This document shows, piece after piece, positions 14,953-49,079 of a stretch of DNA of 64,000 bases. Origin of the DNA: Schizochytrium sp. TIO01 (lineage: Eukaryota > Sar > Bigyra > Thraustochytrida > Thraustochytriidae); NCBI GenBank assembly GCA_004764695.1, contig SMSO01000032.1, positions 2,940,501 to 3,004,500 of the forward strand, written 5' to 3'. The position numbers and the translations under genes were made by a program. Under the pieces are notes generated by a model, which searched no databases, was not told the DNA's origin, and saw nothing but the letters and a program-made list of their open reading frames with translations. How positions within the stretch are numbered: position 1 is the first letter of the stretch; every line of letters begins with the position of its first letter.

Positions 14953-17841
14953 TCAAGGGTTAACGACATTTGTAATGAGAATCTCACGAAATACATTAGG
15001 TAGCTGTGACATGTCAAGTAAGACATGACCACGACCAGGAGGGAGTTCACGTTTGAGCCGCTGCGCCTCCTCACCAAAAGAAGCGATGAAAAGAGCATGA
15101 GCCTCCACATCTGGCGAGGCAATCAGACGCCTTCCCAATTCCGATGCAGGGATGCCGTAACGACGCAAGTTAGCGTCACTCACAACAATGACAAGCTTTT
15201 GGTCTGCATCTTCTTCGTCAACAACCTTGATTGCGGCCTCTGTGCCCTCGAGTGTCATGTCACCAGACCAGCAATATTGCGCATGTGCGATCATATGCTG
15301 ACAAACGCGGAGCTTATCCTTGCGCGTGCGAGGCGGTTCTCCAAATTTCACTAGCTTGATTGCCTCGCTCTCGCCGGAGTGTCCAACAATTGAGTACTTA
15401 TACCTGTCCGCAAAAGGCTCAAGAGCTTCCATGATCATCACTGCAAGCTCACATTCGCGACGGAGGCGCCCGTCTTGTGAGTTAAACCTATACATAGAAC
15501 CACTGCAGTCCAAAAGAAAGAGCAGTCGTTTAGGGAGCTCCTGTACTGCACCAGGCACAGGGTCCCTCACACCACGACGTTTGTAGACCAACCGTTCACC
15601 CAGGGCGCAGTCTACAAGCTTAGAGTCATCGAGGTCTCCAAAAGTTTCATTCTTGAGCCATTCGCGTTCTTGTTTCTTTTTCTCAGCGGCATCCAGCACT
15701 ACACGAAGCTGTGAGATCTCCTGCTCGACATTTCCTAGAAATGTTGCATATTGTTCGTGTTCGTCTTCAGTCATTTCGATTTCTTGCAAACGTTCAGCGA
15801 AGGCCTTGCGGTTGAGCTCGCGAGCTTGCTGCTTTGTAGCATCGTCAACCTGTTGTTTCGCTGCGTCGGTGACTTGATGAACAGGGTGGCCCTTGTCCAG
15901 ACGGTAAGGTCCACCACGGCCTCCAAGACCAGCTGTGTTGCTTCCACCCGTGCCCCCGGCCCAGGTGTTACCCCCAACGTGAGGGGTATTTTCCGGATCC
16001 TCCTTTCCATGCTTAGGGGATTCTACTTTTGGGGGGTTTTCAGATAAGCCTCCGGCGCCTCCTTGAACATGAAGTTGCAGAAGGTCTTGGCCGGCTGCAC
16101 CACTTGAAATTGTCACACGTTCCGCGCTGACTGCATTTGCAGGCAAGCCGTGCATTTCCATCCATTGAGCCAACTCTCGCGTAAGAGCATCGTGGTCGAC
16201 TTGGTAAAGGCGCAACAAACCATGTGGGCCTTGACGCTGTAAGGTTACTAGCTCTCCTTCGTCAGTTTCTGCCATGGCAAGCCATTCTAGGGTATCTTTT
16301 TGCTTTTTTTCTGACTTGGGGTCTGCTGGAAGCATGTTAATTGGCGATATTCGTTTGACAACGTTACGGTTCTCATCAACGATTTGGATGATGACATCTG
16401 ACCGCTGAGGATCTATGGCATGTGGCGATGTTTCCGGTTGCTGCTTGTCAACATTATTTGTAAGGTATTCTAAAGCTTGTTGCTTCATTTTTTTCTTCGT
16501 TTGTTTAGCCAGCTTTGCACGTTGTGCTTTTGCGACTGCCTCGTTTACATCAGTAGCGTCTAAAATCATAGCTACTTGATTGCCATAGTGTAACATTTGC
16601 GTTAAACGGGCTGGGCTGGGTGCCTCAGCCTCCTTTTGCGCCATAGTATCATCTTCTGAAGCCATTCGCGGCACTGTCATGAGTTTGGCTTGCCGCAAGT
16701 CCTCCGGGCTTGCACTAATATGCTGAAGAACCGCGAGAGGGTGCGTGAACTTTACATTTTGCGGAGAACCTCCAATAGGTATTGATGCCTCGGATTCCGC
16801 TTTCTCGACAGCCTCGAGCACAGCTCCAGCGATTCCAGGATAGTCGAGGGAATCTAGCGATGACAACGCTTCCTCAAGTGAGAGAGCGCGTTTTGAGATT
16901 GGGAGCACGTCAAAACGACAGTTCTGCGCAATGCGATGCTGATCGGCATTTCGAAGAGTCTCATCGCCGCTTTCGGAACGTACAAGCCAACAGGGTTGAA
17001 TTGCACCAGAGGAGACTTCTTCAACCTCAGCAAACCAAAGGTGCTTTGTACAAAGAGTGAGATTGCGAGCAATAAAGCCTTCAGGCATATGAACCCGTGT
17101 AACTGCAGGGAAACTCCGCTGAACATCCTTCTCGAGGATGTCAATGGATGCCGTGCCTTCAGGTCCCCCATCAATGACGAGGATGCCTTCCCGTGAAAGG
17201 CTTTCAATCATGCGAGGTTTAGGGCTGCGTTTTTTGCGGATGCTGCCAAAAGGCGAGTTCTGAAACATAGTTTCGAACATGCTCGCTTTGGAGGATGACG
17301 TTTCGCCATCTTTATCCATTGATCCCTTGAATGGGTTGGGAAGTTCGGGCAAGTTAAGCACACGGACCTCCCCGCCCTTGGGTGTGAGAAAAACCAAGGT
17401 GGACATGTTCGGCAAATACATTACCAGTTCGCCGTCAAAGGATCCGAGTGCAGGTCTCACAGCATTGTATGGGAGGACTTCTTCAAGATGTAGCCAAGAT
17501 CTCGATGGGGTCTTGCCTCCAGCTTCTGCAGAAGGTCCCAGATTCCAAAACGAGTGAATGCCAATTGGAGATTCTGTGAGCACATGGATACCGCCTGCCA
17601 CGCAAGCAATATCTACAGGTCTTTGCCAACTTGACTGCACAGGGAGCTGCCATCGAGTTCGCTCTTCCGTAAAGTGTTGTAGCCGAGCTTGATCCGGAGC
17701 AAAGCGTTCTCGATTAGCCTCCGGCACCCGGCCTCTGTAAAGGCGACCATCGACAGGGATCTTTTCCACACGGCAAGACCCACTCACATGCCGGCGCGCC
17801 TCTCCGCCAAATCGAATTGGCCTCCCCCCGCGAGCAAGCAT
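14953..17841 (-). CDS. VWA8-type protein, C-terminal half only, probably mitochondrial
   Basis: A 962-residue protein from the first ATG (17839-17841, G at -3). The frame is open another 24 codons upstream to a TTG but has no other ATG. The N-terminus (MLARGGRPIRFGGEARRHV) is Arg-rich with a single acidic residue, as in mitochondrial leaders. Residues about 60-560 match the non-ATPase middle of VWA8 (RPVDIACVAGGIHVLTESP). A glycine-rich block around 620-645 (PHVGGNTWAGGTGG, GRGGPYRLDKGH) is highly characteristic of VWA8. The C-terminal VWA domain, about 772-962, has an intact MIDAS: DCSGSM at 778, T in SGDMTLEG and D in VVSDANL. Full VWA8 carries AAA+ dynein-like ATPase modules before this part, and they are absent here. 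The upstream gap (about 880 bp) is too short to hold them. Either the gene is split, with the ATPase half elsewhere, or the protein works alone. Family certain, architecture unusual. Confidence 0.92.
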   Translation of the reverse strand: MLARGGRPIRFGGEARRHVSGSCRVEKIPVDGRLYRGRVPEANRERFAPDQARLQHFTEERTRWQLPVQSSWQRPVDIACVAGGIHVLTESPIGIHSFWNLGPSAEAGGKTPSRSWLHLEEVLPYNAVRPALGSFDGELVMYLPNMSTLVFLTPKGGEVRVLNLPELPNPFKGSMDKDGETSSSKASMFETMFQNSPFGSIRKKRSPKPRMIESLSREGILVIDGGPEGTASIDILEKDVQRSFPAVTRVHMPEGFIARNLTLCTKHLWFAEVEEVSSGAIQPCWLVRSESGDETLRNADQHRIAQNCRFDVLPISKRALSLEEALSSLDSLDYPGIAGAVLEAVEKAESEASIPIGGSPQNVKFTHPLAVLQHISASPEDLRQAKLMTVPRMASEDDTMAQKEAEAPSPARLTQMLHYGNQVAMILDATDVNEAVAKAQRAKLAKQTKKKMKQQALEYLTNNVDKQQPETSPHAIDPQRSDVIIQIVDENRNVVKRISPINMLPADPKSEKKQKDTLEWLAMAETDEGELVTLQRQGPHGLLRLYQVDHDALTRELAQWMEMHGLPANAVSAERVTISSGAAGQDLLQLHVQGGAGGLSENPPKVESPKHGKEDPENTPHVGGNTWAGGTGGSNTAGLGGRGGPYRLDKGHPVHQVTDAAKQQVDDATKQQARELNRKAFAERLQEIEMTEDEHEQYATFLGNVEQEISQLRVVLDAAEKKKQEREWLKNETFGDLDDSKLVDCALGERLVYKRRGVRDPVPGAVQELPKRLLFLLDCSGSMYRFNSQDGRLRRECELAVMIMEALEPFADRYKYSIVGHSGESEAIKLVKFGEPPRTRKDKLRVCQHMIAHAQYCWSGDMTLEGTEAAIKVVDEEDADQKLVIVVSDANLRRYGIPASELGRRLIASPDVEAHALFIASFGEEAQRLKRELPPGRGHVLLDMSQLPNVFREILITNVVNP

Positions 17842-18721
17842 CGCGCTGGATCTTCTGCAAAGACGCGCCAGTGATGCGCCGGTAGAAATTGCCAATCGAG
17901 GTGGAGCTCTCAATTGGGATTGCTCGCTGGTCGCAAGATGACGCAGAGAGAAAGAAGAATCTCTTTATGTTTAATTTTTTATTCCTCTAAGGTCTGGTGC
18001 TTCCGGTCTTTGTGGCCCAGAGCTGGTTTTACATAGTGGAAATACCAGATCGCAATGCAACGTGCAGGAGAATCGCGTGTGGAGTTTTTAGGTTGTGCAA
18101 ACATGAAGAAGTAAAGGTTTCAAGGGAAAGAAAGGGCTCCTGATTGGATTTCTATAGTATAAGACATAATGTTTGTTAATTTAGTGGATCATTCTTGAAT
18201 GCTTCGCGTGCAATCACAGGTTTTTGACGATGATATAAATTGAGCTAAAGCTCGGCGGTACATATGAAAGTTCAGAGACGGTCCGTTGCGATTGTAGCAA
18301 TTGTACAAAGGTGTTAGTGCTGGAGTTGTTAAGTGTATTAAAAAACTATGAGCGAGCTATCAAACACTTGTAATGCCAGCTTGAGACCAAGGAGAACATA
18401 GCGTTACTACTAGACCCACCAGCAGCGACGCTATCGGCTGATTCCAACTAAATGAAAGAGTTGGTATGGTATGCTATGAATCAAAATCTGCTTCACAGCG
18501 TATAACGCTGTGCAATTGTGTACTTCAGTAAGACCTACGATCATTCCTCCCATTTTCATTCATTTCAGAAAAAGAGAGGGGCCTTGGTACAATGTTATCT
18601 TGTCAGTCTAAAGAAGCGCTAGCATCGCCTTGATACAAGTCTGACTTTTGAAAAGTTGCGGACGTCATTTGGCAAGCAGTCAGGGAAGCGTAATAGATTC
18701 CAAGTCTCACAGTTGCTCGTG
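17842..18721. other. Intergenic spacer between two minus-strand genes
   Basis: 880 bp that should hold the 3' UTR of the zinc-finger gene and the promoter of the VWA8-like gene. An in-frame TAA (17965-17967) closes the VWA8 frame upstream without an ATG. No AAA+ coding sequence or other gene is visible. Confidence 0.7.
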
Positions 18722-20449
18722 TTAGTCGAAACGCAAATCTCCAAATGTAGAGTCCGTGGAAACTGTTGGAGTTATGAGATTCAAAGAGCTGTTGTTGAAG
18801 TCCGAGTCACTGAGTAGGGTCGGAGATGGAATGGAGTTTGAGAGACTATTTTCCTGGCGAAGCGAACCTGAGCTATCTTTGTGAGATGGCGCTGATCCTT
18901 CTAATGGTGCATTATCGGAGTTGTTGCTATATCCTGATGGGGCAGGTGTAAGCTCAGGGAAGATACCATCTTCGATAGATTGAGAGTTGTATGTTGATGC
19001 AGGTTCGTAAGAAGTGTTCTGAAAGTGTGCATTTTGCGCTGGCGAAGTATGGGACTTAGACTGCTCGTAGCCAAACTTGAGTTTTGAGAAATGGTCAAAT
19101 ATGCGTTGGCAGCGCGGAAAAAAGGTGTGGTCAACATATTGCATACAATTGTAACACCAGATGGATAAGTCTTGCAAGCTAAGACACAAGGAGTGACCGG
19201 TTTTGGAGTGATGCTCGACCATGTGTTTGTAGTCATAGCGACCACAAAAGACTCCACCGCACGTGAGACAAATCCAGTTCTCCTGAGAGGCTGCGGTTGA
19301 TGGTGTAACTCCCATAGCTGCACAAGTTTCACATGGGGCGTTGAAATCAGTGACATGCTCGATGTCGTTTGAAATGTTGCCAGCATGAGAGCACATGAGT
19401 TCACCCATCGGACCTAAATTTTCCCAGAAGAGAAGAGCTTCCTCCCCCTCCACAGGCTCGCCAACCTCAGTCTGCACAGTGGCAGCATTTTGTGGTTCTT
19501 CCCTGAATTTAAGACGATGCATACGTGAGAAGAAATGATAGAGACGTGGAAAAAAGTCATGGTTAAGATACATATCACAGCCATAACACCATACAGAAAG
19601 ATCTGTCATGGACATGCTGACGCAGTGACCAGTTTCTGCGTGGTGCTGCAACATGTGCTTGTTCGCAAATCGTCCGCAGAAGAACTCATGGCACACTAGG
19701 CAGAACCAGTTCTCCTCCTGCGTATGGCAAGTACTACATACGACCTTATCAAGGTCCACAGCGAAGTCATCTTTGATGGGTTTTACTGTGACGATATGCT
19801 GACATTCCCGTGTCTTGAAGAGAAACATATCTGCATCAAATATTCGCACCTTCGTCCCCTTAGCAACTGCCACCAGTGTACTAACATTTGATCCTCGATG
19901 TCCTGCGGAGTCTATAGCATTTGCCGCTTGTGAGTCTTCCTGTGCTGTTGATGTCAGTGTTTTCAATGCTGAAAGTGTACTGGTACTCCTGTGAAGTCCG
20001 CCTTCTTGACGGCCACTTCCTCCCATCGCTGACAAGCTTGACGAAGAAGAAAAACCTAGTCCCAGACTCAAGTTCGAGATTGAGCTTGAGTTCGAGCTCG
20101 AGCTAAATGTCGGCGTTAACCCGGACCGGGCCGCTTGCTCCAAGCCTGATCTTGGGTCAAATTGGCGCGTGTCACTACCCATGGTACGGTGCTCCCCCAA
20201 GTGCGTTGCATGCATGTTTACTGTGCTCGGCGTCATAGAGTTCTCAGTGCTTGTATGCGGAGCATTTCCCAGGCGGCGCTTAGCGTCCGGTGCAAAGTCG
20301 TGTCGCGGGCTTGGGCTGGCGAAGTGGGCCGCAGTATCGCTGCCGGCCTTCGTTGTGGGTGCCTCAAGGTCAGAGTTGTTGAGGTTCGAGTCTGGCCAGG
20401 CGTTGCTGAGCATGTCTTCGACGTTGAAGGCACTCTCCTCATTCGCCAT
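18722..20449 (-). CDS. Tandem ZnF-UBP (HDAC6-like) ubiquitin-binding protein, non-catalytic
   Basis: A 575-residue protein from the ATG at 20447-20449 (A at -3). The frame stays open upstream to a TTG at 20593 but shows no earlier ATG. Residues 1-215 are Ser/Asn-rich and look disordered. Two zinc fingers of the UBP type follow, about 216-312 and 353-455, each very close to the HDAC6 finger: C-x-H start, CxxC, ENWxCLxC, CGR(F/Y), HMxxHH...TGH, then (V/I)WCYxC. The CGR(F/Y) arginine and the WCY residues form the pocket for the free C-terminal Gly-Gly of ubiquitin in HDAC6, and both fingers keep them, so both should bind unanchored ubiquitin ends. No deacetylase, protease or RING domain is present. 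Residues after 460 are again Ser/Asn/Pro-rich. Such a protein may sense free ubiquitin chains, for instance in aggregate handling; that role is inference. Confidence 0.93.
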   Translation of the reverse strand: MANEESAFNVEDMLSNAWPDSNLNNSDLEAPTTKAGSDTAAHFASPSPRHDFAPDAKRRLGNAPHTSTENSMTPSTVNMHATHLGEHRTMGSDTRQFDPRSGLEQAARSGLTPTFSSSSNSSSISNLSLGLGFSSSSSLSAMGGSGRQEGGLHRSTSTLSALKTLTSTAQEDSQAANAIDSAGHRGSNVSTLVAVAKGTKVRIFDADMFLFKTRECQHIVTVKPIKDDFAVDLDKVVCSTCHTQEENWFCLVCHEFFCGRFANKHMLQHHAETGHCVSMSMTDLSVWCYGCDMYLNHDFFPRLYHFFSRMHRLKFREEPQNAATVQTEVGEPVEGEEALLFWENLGPMGELMCSHAGNISNDIEHVTDFNAPCETCAAMGVTPSTAASQENWICLTCGGVFCGRYDYKHMVEHHSKTGHSLCLSLQDLSIWCYNCMQYVDHTFFPRCQRIFDHFSKLKFGYEQSKSHTSPAQNAHFQNTSYEPASTYNSQSIEDGIFPELTPAPSGYSNNSDNAPLEGSAPSHKDSSGSLRQENSLSNSIPSPTLLSDSDFNNSSLNLITPTVSTDSTFGDLRFD

Positions 20450-43001: not shown

Positions 43002-46000
43002 TTAATATTGGTCAAATACGCTGCTGTTATCGTCTTCTCTTCTTGGACAAACGTACTTGAGCACTAGACGCTTTGCGTGAACCTTGACCTTGTCATGTCG
43101 CTCTGCGACCCGTTGAGTCTGGTGGAACCCTGACTCCGCGGAATTGACTTGATCTCTAGCAAACCGTAAAGCACTTTCACAAGCACTCCATGCTTCCTGT
43201 GCATCTCTGGCTACTCGAGTATCAAGGTCGCCGCGGTCTATGAGGTGTAGAACGATTACGCTCGTCTCGGATAGATGTAGTATATTGTTTACCTTTTTCT
43301 CGGCGCATTCCAATGCTGCTTGGGCGGCTTCAAGGCCTCGACGCCATGCTGGATGCAAAGGTGAGAGAACTTTGGAGCCCTGTGTCTGTGACATACGAAG
43401 AGAAACTTCGGCACGTAAAGCGCGCCAACGGGCAAACTCTAATTCGTATCTGGCTTGAAGATCTAAAACACCCTGACCCCTTGCACCTCCAAGAATATGC
43501 CCAATACTATCCCTTGTTTTCGCAGCGGCTTCTGCATGAAATGAGTGAGACATTTTGGCCCTGACATTTTCCCATTGGAGATCTGGTTTTCGGGACGAAC
43601 AATTCCTGAGATAGCAGTCCTTCTCAAAATTATCATTGTCTACTTCTTTCGTTTCTTCTAACCCGGCGCATGACTTTTTAGCGCTGAATAGCAGCTCGTG
43701 CAAGTGCTGGTACTCTGCCATGGCTTGTGTAACCTGCTCTTGCGCTAGGTCCGGATTTTCATGGAGCACAGAATCTTCGAATACATTGACACAATAAGCA
43801 AGATGCGCGATTTGAGCACGTGTACTCGAAGAAAGATTGTCGCACAGCCCTTGGGCATCTAGTTCTAGGAGTGTTGCTAGTAATCGACGCGCAGGCTCCA
43901 ATTTTGGGATAGAATCCTTTCGTACTGCAGACACTTTTGCCCTTTGCAAACTTCGGTGCTTCAATGTTGCCTCCGATTTTGCAACTTCTCTGAGCTCGCG
44001 CTCTTGGTCAAGTCGACCAGCTTCAATTACAAAGGCTTGTTGTGTACTAACCACTTGCTCAACCTGCTGCAGAGCATACATTGCCCGACCGTGAGCTTCT
44101 TCTATGACCTGCATAGGGTCCGCTTTGACAAACAACAACACTCGGATTGGCTCCTGACTGTCCCGGGAACTGCTTTCTGCTGCTCGATATTCATCATCCA
44201 GATCTCGTGCTTCAAACTCGCTCGCAGTCAGGTACTCAACTCCTTCATTGTAGTCTAATATTGTGCATGCCGCATCCCGTAACTGGTGCTCCAAAGGCAT
44301 GTGAAGATTATCTTTCCGTAGCATCTTGCTCAAATGCTTCACACGTTCTAAGCGTAGACGCATACTCTCCACACAATCTTTATGTTCTGCGAGCTTCTCT
44401 ACCTCCTTGCTTCTCGCTTGAATCAAAGCCGTGAGTGTTGCCTCAGCGCTTGCGCAACACGTGGCTGCTCGCTGAGCCGCAGAGTGAATTGAGCAGCTAA
44501 TTGATTCCTCTTGATCGTCCTTGTCATTATGTTGTTGTAAATTATGCAGGGCGCCTACTTTACTAGTTAGACGGTCAAGAGAAGTCTGTGTCTGTGTAAG
44601 CTCATTACAAAATTGGTTTGCCAGCTTGCACACCTGCGCGCTACACCAGCTAGCTTTGCAAAGCCCACGTACTGATCTTGTTTCGAAAACTGGATTGCGC
44701 ATCATCTGAGCTTGCAGACGTCCGATCTCCCTACTAACATGCTCAGCAGTACTCTGAGCCTGCAATACCTCCTTTCGTAAGGCTGAGATTTTATTAAACT
44801 CGTCATCTGCAAGCATAACAAAAGCTTCAATCAAATCAATCGCGGTTTCCGTCATATAAGGTATGGAACTAAGATCGCTGTCTGTCAAGAGACCTTGATG
44901 CTCATCCAAGAGACTGTTTGCTTCTTCTACTTGAAGCTCTACACTTTGCAACGCATCATGCAATTTAAATCTATTCTCTAGTTGATGTCTCGCGATAAAA
45001 TTTCGGGTTTGTTTCAGACGGTCAAGCGCAGGTAAGAGCATTTCGCGTGATGAATTCTGAGCTGACCGAACTTCATCTAATCTAGATCTGATTCTATGAA
45101 CTTCTTTCTCGAATTTCTTAGTTGCCCGCTCAATCAGTTTTGTTACTTCTGCAATTTCTTCGTTTGCTGCTTCAAGGGTCGCTTTAGTTGTGCTTGTCGT
45201 GGAGTTCCGGCAAGTAAACTTAGCAGCTCGGGCACGTAGGTCCTTCATGTGCTCCGAGTACTTGCGCACCCTCACATTGTCCATAAGGAGGTCAAAATCA
45301 AAAGGACGCAATGCTTCCATCTCTCTCACCTGAGCATCACGCTCAGAAATTACAGATTCCTTACACTGATCTCGTAATTCTTCAGTAAGTTTATTCAGTA
45401 CCACAATGACCTTTTTGCTCTCGATAATGTCTTCCTCTAGGCCTTCCACTGCAGCTTTGGCGTGCACAAGGGCAATATCGATATCCTCAACGTCTTGCAA
45501 TGTACCATCCTCCGGAAATAAGAATAGGTTATCCTGCAGGTCATTGTCTTCATCACTGCTGCAATCATCGTCGGTATACTCATTCACATTGGAGTTGACA
45601 ACCTTACGACGATGCATATGTGAAAAGTTCCCTTTTGACATCATAAAACTCGAAGATGTTGTTCCTTGCCAAGGAAGCTCTTGAAACATCGAAGGCTTAC
45701 CCATGACCTCGGTTAGATGACTGAAAGTTTCGCGAGCTGTAGAGATACTATCATGGATATCTTCCAGGCGGTGAAGGTCTTTTGTACCATGAAAATCTAA
45801 CAAGGTGCGCTTCAACAAAGTTTTGATGAGATCTGCTTCCTGGTAGATCCGTTTATAGTTTGCTTCAATATCACGTTTTTTGTTCAGTGCATCTCTCAAT
45901 GCCCTTTTCAGTTCGTCAAGCCTCGTACGAAACATAGTACAATCGTTTTCTGCTGCATCTACAGCTAGCTTATCGATGTGATCTACTGCACTCTCAAGCG

Positions 46001-49000
46001 CCTGTATCGTTTGTAGGCGTAGTGATCCATATTTCGAAATTAACCTGGTCGCTAAGACATCCGCTGCCTTTGTACAAGACGCAACGGGCTCGAAACAAAG
46101 ATCTGCTTTGGATGCTGCCTCCTCTGTTAAAAACTCTTGCAGCAGAGAGTCAAGCTCTTGTTTTTCATTCAAGAGTTCTTCGAGCCGCGCTTCTAATTTG
46201 TGGAAAGCTGTTTCAGAGGATGCAAGTCGCGGGGCAACCTCTGATAAGGCGTTTTCACATTTGACTAAGCTGGCATCAGCCAGGTCTAAGTTTTCGCGAG
46301 CGTTGACGAATTCGCTTGCATCTTGAATCAAGGTTTCTATTGAGGTAATGTGGGAGTCAAGAATATCCATATTGAGTGCGTGCTCCCATTTAGTTAAGAC
46401 ATTTCTCCGAGTTCGTGCTTGTTGATATGCCTTCGATACAGTGCTTAGTCGAGCGGAACGAAGAAACCATTTTCGTTTTGACTCAAGTTCGTGAATTTGT
46501 TTTTGATACTCGCGACGAACTCGCACTCCTCGCCAGTGGGATTGCGACCACAGCACCAGTCTACGTTTGATTCTGAACCTACGAACATGGAGAAATTGAC
46601 GAACAATACTTTGCACTGTAACTACCTGTTCAGTGACATGCTGTAAGATAACACTGTCAACTTCGTGAAGAATGTTTGCCCTTAAAAACACCTTTGTTTT
46701 GCCAAGAGCTACTTGATCACGCCAAACTGCAATCGGGGAACTTGCAAAGAGTTCTTCTGCAAGGCTCTTCCAGTATGCATCCCCAACATGAGCATCGCGA
46801 GGCAAAAGTACACGGCAACGGAGACAGAACTCCTTGTATGCGAGACGATTTGGGAAACCTGCTCGCCGCATCTCCAATGCTGCAATCACACCAGCATTTC
46901 TCAATTGACGCAATACCGAGTTGCGGTCAACCTTACTTTTCACTAACTCGTTGTTCGTTTTGATACAGCGAACAAATATAGGATTGGTCTGTTGTATTGT
47001 CTCCGTAAGTACTTGAACTTGTGCAGCAAAATGCTTTGCCACTGTCTCTTGAAGCTTGTTAGAAGCCACCCCAGGTGCTTTGGATTCATGCGTAGGTAAA
47101 GAATGAGAAGAGTCAAAGAGTTTAGCCACTAAAGGAACTTGTGATCTCGCGAGAAGGGACTCCACATGGACATACAGAGTGTCACGATTCTTTTTAATAA
47201 AATCCGTGCATGTGTACACGATCTCACCAGCATAATGCTGAATGGCAAAATTAAGTTCAGTAGTACCCTTGTGCTTAGACCCAGGACCACAGACGCCAAA
47301 GTTTACGTGAGCACGGTTCTGCTGAGTAATCTGGCCGGCTAGACTTCTGTCAGAGCCAGCACCCATGCGAAGGCACTCGTCGTGCATCAATTTAAAGATA
47401 CCATGCATTAACGAAATGCACTTTTCGTTATTCGGAATCTCCATACGTGAAAATGGAACATTCTCAGCCTTGTACATAGCCTCTTCTGCACGAAAAACCT
47501 GTTCATTGAAAAGGCTTTGAAGCTTCTCGTTGGCGAAGTTAATAAGAAGTTGCTCAAAGCCATTCTCTTCAAATGATTCAAATCCATAAATATCGAGAAT
47601 TCCAATGAACGGTTGCGCTGACTCCTCGGCAAGATGACCCTGGTCAAGACTTGCATTGACACATTCCACAATGTAAGTAAATAGTAGAGAATAGATAGAT
47701 TTGGATAATGCATCGCGAAGATCAGAAGCTTTACGATTATCCAAGGGTGACTCAATTGCTTTGCCGTTCACATTGATATACTTTACAGTAAGTGCTTGCG
47801 CAAGTTCCACCGGCGAGCACCCAAGAAGTTCGCAAGCTTTGTGCAGTGCCACGTCTTGAGCAGCAACGTTGGCATCTGCGCCTTTGGTCTCTTCCTCGAA
47901 TTCCCCAAGTCCGGATGAAGATCTGGACGATGGTGTTGAGGACTTTGCCCCAAAACCTTTCTGTTGAGGTTGCTTTCCACGAGGAGAAAGTGGCGTCTTG
48001 CCAAAAGTTACATTTCCGAGATGAAGAATAGCCGCAACAATTTTCATAATACTTTCAATATCGTCTTTAGAAATGTCAACTGCTTGCATAGCATCAGTGG
48101 TTGCGTGATATTCACTTGCATCATTTAAATGAAGGACCTCCAAACAGCCACTTTGGTTTAGGTAGCGAAAACTTTCGAGATTTTGGTTTAAGCCGAGCTC
48201 TTCTGCTTGCTTTGGCTCAGCCCCTCGACAGAGTTGATAGAAAATGTGATAGTTTCGCTCCCCAATGTTTTGACGCACAGCACGACTCTTTTCAAGTAAG
48301 TAATTCGAAATATGCGCACCTGCAATAGTTTTCGCTTGAAATCTAAGCTGAATAAATTTGCCAAATCGGCTAGAGTTCCTATTGCGGAGGGTTTTCGCAT
48401 TTCCAAACGCCTCGAGCAAAGGATTGGATTTCATGATACGGTCGGCGATACCTCGGTTTGTAGAGTCTGTGTAGTTATGTGATAGAAACTCAAGCATGAG
48501 TTTTGTTGTTTCTGTCTTGCCGGCTCCGCTTTCACCACAGATAATCAAGGATTGACTTGATGACGAGCTAATCAAGGCGGTATATGCCTTTTGTGCTTCA
48601 GCAAAACAGTGTGGATCAAGACTGTCCACATCACGGCCTGCTTCGGAATATTTAATCATGATATTCTGATCGTAGATGGGCAACCACTCAAAAGGATTCA
48701 TAGCCACAAGGATCGGTCCTGTGCGCGTATATATCTTTTTGTCGGCGAAGCGCACACTTACATTATGCAATACACATGCTTCATTGAGATGTGTAAGGTC
48801 GTCCATATTATCAAGACCGGAGCCTTTTGGACCTACATCCCGAGGGACAATGCGCGTAGTTTTTAGACATTGCCCTGCACTGTCTACAGGGATTTCAGCT
48901 TTTGTGGCTGACGTGCCAGAGGTACTCTGAATGGACGGGTCCTCGACGTATCGAATTTGGATATGTTTGCCAGATTGAACTTCTGTAATGATGCCTGGAA

Positions 49001-49079
49001 TCCATGCATCTTCATTGTTGGAGATCCACACCGGTTGGTTCTTGTGTTGTTCTGACCAAACCTGCTGCGAGCCATCCAT
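43002..49079 (-). CDS. Myosin heavy chain with long helical tail
   Basis: A 2025-residue unconventional myosin in one exon, starting at the ATG of ACCATGG (49077-49079). Residues about 8-55 resemble the N-terminal SH3-like domain. The motor spans about 70-800: P-loop GESGAGKT at 182, switch I NRNSSRFGKF at 233, switch II DIYGFESF at 496, the SH/actin region FVRCIKTN at 702 and converter KVFLRA near 796. A Ser/Lys/Gln-rich insert sits at about 360-410 after FGKTP. Two IQ-like segments (QSIVRQFLHVRRF, QSHWRGVRVRREY) at about 820-865 should bind calmodulin-type light chains. The remaining 1150 residues are charged, helical and partly coiled coil. I see no MyTH4, FERM, PH, SH3 or DIL domain. All key ATPase residues are present, so it should be an active actin motor. 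The myosin class is not clear; it may be a stramenopile-specific one. Confidence 0.97.
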   Translation of the reverse strand: MDGSQQVWSEQHKNQPVWISNNEDAWIPGIITEVQSGKHIQIRYVEDPSIQSTSGTSATKAEIPVDSAGQCLKTTRIVPRDVGPKGSGLDNMDDLTHLNEACVLHNVSVRFADKKIYTRTGPILVAMNPFEWLPIYDQNIMIKYSEAGRDVDSLDPHCFAEAQKAYTALISSSSSQSLIICGESGAGKTETTKLMLEFLSHNYTDSTNRGIADRIMKSNPLLEAFGNAKTLRNRNSSRFGKFIQLRFQAKTIAGAHISNYLLEKSRAVRQNIGERNYHIFYQLCRGAEPKQAEELGLNQNLESFRYLNQSGCLEVLHLNDASEYHATTDAMQAVDISKDDIESIMKIVAAILHLGNVTFGKTPLSPRGKQPQQKGFGAKSSTPSSRSSSGLGEFEEETKGADANVAAQDVALHKACELLGCSPVELAQALTVKYINVNGKAIESPLDNRKASDLRDALSKSIYSLLFTYIVECVNASLDQGHLAEESAQPFIGILDIYGFESFEENGFEQLLINFANEKLQSLFNEQVFRAEEAMYKAENVPFSRMEIPNNEKCISLMHGIFKLMHDECLRMGAGSDRSLAGQITQQNRAHVNFGVCGPGSKHKGTTELNFAIQHYAGEIVYTCTDFIKKNRDTLYVHVESLLARSQVPLVAKLFDSSHSLPTHESKAPGVASNKLQETVAKHFAAQVQVLTETIQQTNPIFVRCIKTNNELVKSKVDRNSVLRQLRNAGVIAALEMRRAGFPNRLAYKEFCLRCRVLLPRDAHVGDAYWKSLAEELFASSPIAVWRDQVALGKTKVFLRANILHEVDSVILQHVTEQVVTVQSIVRQFLHVRRFRIKRRLVLWSQSHWRGVRVRREYQKQIHELESKRKWFLRSARLSTVSKAYQQARTRRNVLTKWEHALNMDILDSHITSIETLIQDASEFVNARENLDLADASLVKCENALSEVAPRLASSETAFHKLEARLEELLNEKQELDSLLQEFLTEEAASKADLCFEPVASCTKAADVLATRLISKYGSLRLQTIQALESAVDHIDKLAVDAAENDCTMFRTRLDELKRALRDALNKKRDIEANYKRIYQEADLIKTLLKRTLLDFHGTKDLHRLEDIHDSISTARETFSHLTEVMGKPSMFQELPWQGTTSSSFMMSKGNFSHMHRRKVVNSNVNEYTDDDCSSDEDNDLQDNLFLFPEDGTLQDVEDIDIALVHAKAAVEGLEEDIIESKKVIVVLNKLTEELRDQCKESVISERDAQVREMEALRPFDFDLLMDNVRVRKYSEHMKDLRARAAKFTCRNSTTSTTKATLEAANEEIAEVTKLIERATKKFEKEVHRIRSRLDEVRSAQNSSREMLLPALDRLKQTRNFIARHQLENRFKLHDALQSVELQVEEANSLLDEHQGLLTDSDLSSIPYMTETAIDLIEAFVMLADDEFNKISALRKEVLQAQSTAEHVSREIGRLQAQMMRNPVFETRSVRGLCKASWCSAQVCKLANQFCNELTQTQTSLDRLTSKVGALHNLQQHNDKDDQEESISCSIHSAAQRAATCCASAEATLTALIQARSKEVEKLAEHKDCVESMRLRLERVKHLSKMLRKDNLHMPLEHQLRDAACTILDYNEGVEYLTASEFEARDLDDEYRAAESSSRDSQEPIRVLLFVKADPMQVIEEAHGRAMYALQQVEQVVSTQQAFVIEAGRLDQERELREVAKSEATLKHRSLQRAKVSAVRKDSIPKLEPARRLLATLLELDAQGLCDNLSSSTRAQIAHLAYCVNVFEDSVLHENPDLAQEQVTQAMAEYQHLHELLFSAKKSCAGLEETKEVDNDNFEKDCYLRNCSSRKPDLQWENVRAKMSHSFHAEAAAKTRDSIGHILGGARGQGVLDLQARYELEFARWRALRAEVSLRMSQTQGSKVLSPLHPAWRRGLEAAQAALECAEKKVNNILHLSETSVIVLHLIDRGDLDTRVARDAQEAWSACESALRFARDQVNSAESGFHQTQRVAERHDKVKVHAKRLVLKYVCPRREDDNSSVFDQY

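Follow-up and report, generated by a model that had tools for sequence, protein, structure and literature searches.

The mitochondrial protein VWA8 is linked to disease, and how it works is, to our knowledge, not known. This study describes a two-gene form of it in the thraustochytrid Schizochytrium sp. TIO01, in which the C-terminal half, carrying the VWA domain, is encoded on a stretch of 64,000 nucleotides of contig SMSO01000032.1 (here called the window) and the N-terminal AAA+ ATPase half is encoded by a second gene of the same genome. In animals, VWA8 (KIAA0564, P7BP2) is a single chain with a mitochondrial leader, three dynein-like AAA modules and a C-terminal VWA domain containing a metal ion-dependent adhesion site (MIDAS) (PMC7297598 and the accessible part of PMC8517341). 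The human protein has 1905 residues, with three AAA domains, a C-terminal VWA domain and long and short isoforms, according to the same part of PMC8517341; excerpts of other papers give the AAA+ domain count as two or six. The long form of worm VWA-8 has 1804 residues and includes the VWA domain, and its short form of 974 residues consists of the leader and three AAA modules with no VWA domain (PMC7297598). A form with the VWA domain alone is described neither in PMC7297598 nor in the accessible part of PMC8517341. In excerpts of further papers, human VWA8 is also placed in peroxisomes via type 2 peroxisomal targeting signals (PTS2; PMC11764017), and VWA8 is reported to co-migrate with mitoribosome intermediates and respiratory complexes (PMC10743472).

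Two other groups of AAA+ machines are close to VWA8. In the bacterial MoxR AAA+/VWA pairs (NorQ/NorD, CbbQ/CbbO and RavA/ViaA) the ATPase and the VWA adaptor are separate proteins, and the NorQ AAA+ hexamer takes a finger of the VWA domain of the separate NorD into its pore. Midasin (Rea1/Mdn1) has six AAA modules of the dynein-like type and a MIDAS domain that docks on the ring, all in one giant chain (4717–4910 residues in PDB entries). The finger mechanism has been extended from predictions to Rea1, ChlD and VWA8, as stated in the accessible part of PMC9976466.

The gene in the window (coding sequence 14953..17841 with the stop included; P0001, 962 residues) lies on the minus strand, as do all of its features given below. 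Its frame is intact, with 962 codons open from the ATG at 17841, and chance is excluded as its origin because it matches the VWA halves of three fused VWA8 genes of the same genome (35–39% identity over 285–324 residues, E down to 9e-60 in BLAST). A VWA hidden Markov model (HMM) run over all six frames of the window matched this frame only. The original prediction had described the gene as the C-terminal half of VWA8 standing on its own, without AAA+ modules but with a complete MIDAS and a glycine-rich block, and this description proved correct. The sole Pfam match at E ≤ 0.001 is VWA_2, with no AAA+ module. The VWA core, residues 773–890 (15172..15525), could be aligned with the paralogs; its VWA_2 score of 24.2 bits is below the 27-bit cut-off; the score is equally weak in two of the three fused paralogs (23.7 and 22.3 bits), and no VWA match is listed at E ≤ 0.001 for the third, P0003. 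In the alignment of the four copies the MIDAS of P0001 is complete: the DxSxS motif is D778-C-S780-G-S782 (15496..15510), whose aspartate and both serines are present in all four copies, the threonine is T863 in SGDMT (15253..15255) and the second aspartate is D889 in SDAN (15175..15177).

From its N-terminus, P0001 comprises a basic leader, an extended middle region, a glycine-rich block that starts at residue 612 and the C-terminal VWA domain. The glycine-rich block, residues 612–657 (HVGGNTWAGGTGG..TAGLGG.GGPYRLD.., 15871..16008), forms the linker preceding the VWA region, and the richest 40-residue stretch of the protein, with 13 glycines, begins at its first residue. The three fused paralogs have low-complexity glycine tracts, with 22–26 glycines in 40 residues, in place of this NTWAGGTGG-type block, which appears to be VWA8-specific and similar to that of animal VWA8; a text search for peptides of such a block found nothing. 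Ahead of the linker, residues 520–566 contain an 'LYqvD...W..mhG' block (16144..16284) that is perhaps weakly shared with the middle region of the paralogs. Homology of residues 21–640 as a whole to that region is not claimed, the hhalign P value being 0.061 for a single block of 44 columns (0.51 for the reversed sequence). P0001 had no match to the PDB at E ≤ 0.1 and none to NCBIfam.

Upstream of P0001, 880 bp (17842..18721, minus strand) separate the ATG at 17841 from the stop codon, at 18722, of the next gene encoded on that strand. As originally proposed, this interval is too short for the missing AAA+ half; it contains no AAA+ coding sequence that could be found and no N, and thus no assembly gap, and an HMM of the VWA8 AAA halves gave no match at E ≤ 10 in the six frames of the 64-kb window. 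Upstream of the ATG the frame itself stays open to 17964 (17842–17964); this stretch is basic, Ser/Arg-rich and presequence-like and follows a pyrimidine-rich run. It has no in-frame ATG, and a codon-usage test gave no decision; a 5' exon of P0001 is possible.

The same genome (64.06 Mb in 37 contigs, with the window at C31:2940501-3004500) was searched with the AAA+ half of P0002, one of the fused paralogs, for a protein having only the VWA8 AAA+ modules, a check that had accompanied the original prediction. Such a gene was found on the same contig as the window: P0005, with 1139 residues from its ATG (C31:8009006-8012425, plus strand; L038:3507-6926), was located at C31:8009210-8012287 (+) in an open frame of 1153 residues, by two stretches with E values of 3.7e-113 and 1.5e-58 and 41% identity over residues 326–924 of P0002. 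The search also matched the three fused genes and, weakly (E 7.4e-4), a midasin-like gene on contig C35. P0005 contains three AAA_5 modules (PF07728, three stretches, E 1e-86), and the VWA HMM found no match in the 9.9-kb locus around it or in about 10 kb on either side. Conversely, all four places found in a genome search with P0001 were P0001 itself and the three fused copies, none of them near P0005. The suggested division of a single protein into an ATPase subunit and a VWA subunit is thus supported by two separate intact frames, and the AAA+ half lies not in exons upstream of P0001 but 5.05 Mb away on the opposite strand. P0005 ends 3, 9 and 46 residues past the last BLAST match to P0004, P0003 and P0002, respectively. 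The cut therefore falls about where the worm short isoform ends, since both stop after the third AAA module.

The motifs of P0005 follow those of the fused copies. The Walker A motif of AAA module 1 is off-pattern in all four copies (GSPGPARR, GAPGPTRR, GAPGRVKR and GPPGPLRR, the lysine being kept in P0003), that of module 2 is regular and ends in GKS or GKT, and that of module 3 reads GNQGxGKN, a DE following in Walker B; therefore, the split ATPase has lost none of the motifs that the fused copies have. Against the PDB, the best matches of P0005 were to Midasin/Rea1/Mdn1 in module 3 (five rows, E 1.6e-19 to 5.9e-12), and module 2 matched NorQ and CbbQ chains (four rows, E 1.4e-9 to 1.7e-6); the three NCBIfam rows were all below their cut-offs. 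In a genome-wide AAA_5 search, 12 of the 23 candidates scored, out of 129, lay in the four VWA8-type AAA+ genes, and the remaining 11 were midasin-like or were others at C24, C31 and C34.

That the two genes are one gene broken by misassembly, or the ends of a hidden spliced transcript, is extremely improbable. Each locus is at least 1.0 Mb from the ends of the 9.04-Mb contig and is free of N; unlike the pieces of a broken gene, P0005 and P0001 each possess a start, a stop and a basic leader; and no AAA+ remnant was found in the window, nor a VWA remnant around P0005. What speaks for such an artefact is that the genome was read in six frames only and that P0001 may have a 5' exon.

The three fused paralogs have the same module order as P0005 and P0001 taken together, but with the AAA+ modules and the VWA region in one gene. 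P0003 (L005:966-8354, contig C13) has 2462 residues; P0004 with its second exon P0006 (L006:1853-8439, contig C13) has about 2087 residues when joined; and P0002 (L007:3566-8470, contig C36) has 1634 residues. Their VWA8 C-termini lie at C13:2766366, C13:578933 and C36:4532435. The genome thus holds an expanded VWA8 family of four, one member of which is split. P0004 has an apparent intron (L006:6877-7199, GTAAGT ... CATAG) just ahead of the glycine-rich tract, the other VWA8 frames reading as single exons, and P0003 is 828 residues longer than P0002, partly owing to a charged stretch, coiled-coil-like by eye, between its glycine tract and its VWA region. Pairwise identity across the copies is 39–45% for the AAA halves and 29–44% for the VWA halves.

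Quartet trees were computed for each half. The AAA halves group as (P0005, P0002)|(P0003, P0004) with a bootstrap of 100, the other two topologies having approximately unbiased (AU) test p values of 0.0004 and 0.003, and the VWA halves group as (P0001, P0002)|(P0003, P0004), again with a bootstrap of 100 (AU p of 0.023 and 0.0057 for the other two). P0005 and P0001 therefore take the same place, as both are paired with P0002. Their end branches (0.82 for P0005 and 0.61 for P0001) fall within the ranges of the fused copies (0.65–1.24 for AAA and 0.56–1.21 for VWA). Among AAA-half columns where the three remaining copies agree, P0005 retains the shared residue in 217 of 262 (83%), compared with 217 of 256 (85%) in P0003, 217 of 249 (87%) in P0004 and 217 of 301 (72%) in P0002; for the VWA half, P0001, P0003 and P0004 each keep 50 of 61 (82%) and P0002 keeps 50 of 77 (65%). 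With conservation and end branches within the range of the fused copies, the split genes look like working genes. The other possibility raised originally, a VWA-only remnant with a new role, is less probable, given that retention of the invariant residues in P0005 and P0001 comes close to that of the fused genes and that their end branches lie within the fused range.

These data also bear on a history of separate partial losses, in which one duplicate lost its VWA half and another its AAA+ half, P0005 then being an independent ATPase and P0001 a free VWA adaptor. The AAA-only isoform of the worm, the non-adjacent positions of the two genes 5.05 Mb apart and the lack of similarity between residues 21–500 of P0001 and the paralogs would all suit it. 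It is at odds with the shared place in the two quartets, with the nearly equal conservation of the halves, MIDAS included, and with their complementary content, no third partial VWA8 copy having turned up in the genome searches with P0001 and with the AAA+ half of P0002, which score the best candidates only, so that further remote copies are possible. Moreover, a duplication followed by reciprocal losses would itself be one way of arriving at fission, so that only the independent action of the two proteins would distinguish this history, which we regard as unlikely.

It could also be supposed that the split state is ancestral and that the fused paralogs arose by later fusion, given that AAA+ and VWA partners are separate in bacteria and archaea (accessible part of PMC10743472). 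Animal VWA8 is fused, and when the 12 AAA modules are placed in one tree, so that the module groups root one another, P0005 does not branch first in any of the three, although most supports within the groups are weak (44–98); an ancestral split is thus very improbable. On the same two grounds, a single fission is the simplest history. The pair more probably arose by a secondary split of a fused ancestor than by direct descent from the MoxR/VWA pairs. Two routes to the present arrangement were weighed but not adopted. One inversion spanning about 5 Mb, with one of its breaks inside the linker, would place the genes on opposite strands, as observed; a fitting orientation is expected by chance about half of the time. 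Duplication followed by reciprocal loss fits as well.

From the two intact frames, their domain content, the break point, the shared place in the trees and the conservation, we consider it likely that one VWA8 paralog underwent fission into an ATPase subunit, P0005, and a VWA subunit, P0001, which would reassemble in trans in mitochondria. The N-terminal half, with its three AAA_5 modules, would have become a stand-alone ATPase subunit and the C-terminal half, comprising the central region, the glycine-rich linker and the MIDAS-bearing VWA domain, a stand-alone adaptor. After import into the matrix, the two would assemble there into a single AAA+/VWA remodelling machine. Because P0001 has the layout of NorD, we propose that P0005 builds the ring and that the VWA domain of P0001 may dock on it in trans, probably, by analogy with NorQ/NorD, with a finger in the pore of the P0005 ring. 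The MIDAS face of P0001 and the region preceding the linker might hold the substrate, on which the ATP-driven motion of the ring would work.

The leaders of the two proteins fit such an import. The N-terminal leader of P0001, residues 1–25 counted from the ATG at 17841 (17767..17841), is Arg-rich and mitochondrial-presequence-like by a score of charge and moment. With seven arginines in the first 35 residues and a net charge of +5, it is equalled on three measures together by 24 of 7809 internal 35-mers; it has one D/E in the first 25 residues, no fewer than the chaperonin-family controls L044 and L052. The leader of P0005, which begins with MTMRKTMPSSASSVLASRAASQSKKRIPLGSFQHRW, has a net charge of +7 and no D/E in the first 35 residues, and 15 of the 7809 internal 35-mers are as extreme. 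Both leaders are compatible with mitochondrial import without being proof of it. The Arg-rich leader originally ascribed to P0001 thus holds in composition, while its start is less sure with the frame open to 17964. A PTS2 pattern was absent from the first 120 residues of every protein scored for leaders, including P0001, P0005 and the fused paralogs.

The leaders further bear on the idea that P0001 is an exchangeable or extra adaptor, serving not only the ring of P0005 but also those of the fused paralogs. Three fused paralogs are present and the AAA halves are 39–45% identical, but the fused proteins have their own VWA domains, and neither P0004 (leader net −1) nor P0003 (leader net +3, with two D/E among its first 25 residues) has a leader that is clearly mitochondrial, so that another compartment may apply to these two; a shared adaptor is improbable.

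Several points weigh against fission with assembly in trans. The leader test is a crude score of charge and moment rather than a trained predictor, and it was compared with 13 control loci: L040, a citrate synthase taken as mitochondrial, L041–L046 and L052, of the chaperonin family and taken as cytosolic without test, and L047–L051, five loci that were dropped for partial or unclear frames and of which L048 was as extreme as 2 of 7809. The citrate synthase scores below both P0001 and P0005 (net +3, no D/E in 25 residues, 61 of 7809). In the seven chaperonin-family controls, the first 25 residues include one to four D/E and the net charge runs from −1 to +5; L044 reaches +5 and L052 35 of 7809, so that the score separates the classes poorly. 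The leader of the fused P0002 is as high (net +6, 0 of 7809), and a basic leader is thus not specific to the split pair. The start codon of P0001 at 17841 is uncertain, its BLAST homology to the paralogs starts only at about residue 620, and hhalign detects no similarity of residues 21–500 to the middle of the fused paralogs. Structures folded without an alignment were of low confidence (mean pLDDT, the predicted local distance difference score, of 35 for residues 25–420 of P0001 and 45 for residues 660–962), with no finger visible. Finally, the tree and conservation comparisons cover the four VWA8 copies of this one genome, a chance agreement between two quartets is expected in one case out of three, and both trees have P0002 as their longest branch.

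Compared with the described systems, P0005 and P0001 jointly carry the features of animal VWA8: the three AAA_5 modules are in P0005, the C-terminal VWA domain with its MIDAS is in P0001 and each begins with a basic leader, low in acidic residues, that may be of the mitochondrial kind. Unlike the animal protein, they are not a single polypeptide but two genes 5.05 Mb apart. We therefore class the pair, by domain content, as a split VWA8 variant and not as an ordinary VWA8. A VWA-only gene with its own leader is new here. As in the MoxR AAA+/VWA pairs, the ATPase and the VWA adaptor are separate, and P0001 resembles NorD (as described in the accessible part of its source) in having an N-terminal domain, a linker and a C-terminal VWA domain with a MIDAS. 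The pair differs from these systems in that P0005 has three AAA modules against one per NorQ chain, and in that the two genes are not adjacent. Dynein-like AAA modules and a MIDAS domain that would dock on the ring are shared with Midasin, which differs from P0005 (1139 residues, three modules) and P0001 (962 residues) by its single giant chain. The genome's own midasin candidate is the midasin-like gene at C35:754642-759906, an open frame of 5772 residues with four AAA_5 matches.

Beyond this genome, contig scans rested on two to six short exact peptide patterns, and their silence is weak evidence. An alignment of AAA module 3 gave one match among 140 stretches of prokaryotic genome contigs (44% over residues 3–59, on an archaeal contig), which is not a VWA8, and none among 31 viral stretches; P0001 had no match among six viral stretches, nor to plasmids and phages, and P0005 had none to plasmids. 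In a limited literature collection, no paper was found on VWA8 together with thraustochytrids, and none of the listed papers on gene fission contains VWA8; the main text of a proteome paper on Aurantiochytrium limacinum (PMC12221091) has no occurrence of von Willebrand, VWA or AAA. Two side observations were made. One of the dropped control loci, L047 (C3:1850172-1851572), is a frame of the chaperonin family whose Pfam match is interrupted by one in-frame TGA, which could reflect an intron, an error or a pseudogene, and the window itself contains a myosin-like frame of 2025 residues in a single exon (43002–49079, minus strand) with a long tail, its motor motifs having been recognized by eye.

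In conclusion, a natural two-gene VWA8 shows where the chain can be cut, namely after the third AAA module as in the AAA-only isoform of the worm, and it suggests a VWA domain able to act on the ring in trans. The split form is a testable system, as its halves can be tagged, removed and purified singly, unlike those of a single chain, and it connects VWA8 of eukaryotes with NorQ/NorD, whose mechanism is better understood. More tentatively, with somewhat less confidence than we would give to an even chance, a fused mitochondrial machine may here have reverted to two components of the bacterial style, beside three fused paralogs, with the adaptor docking in trans on a three-module ring; if this is true, the loading of the adaptor could be regulated and adaptors may be exchanged.

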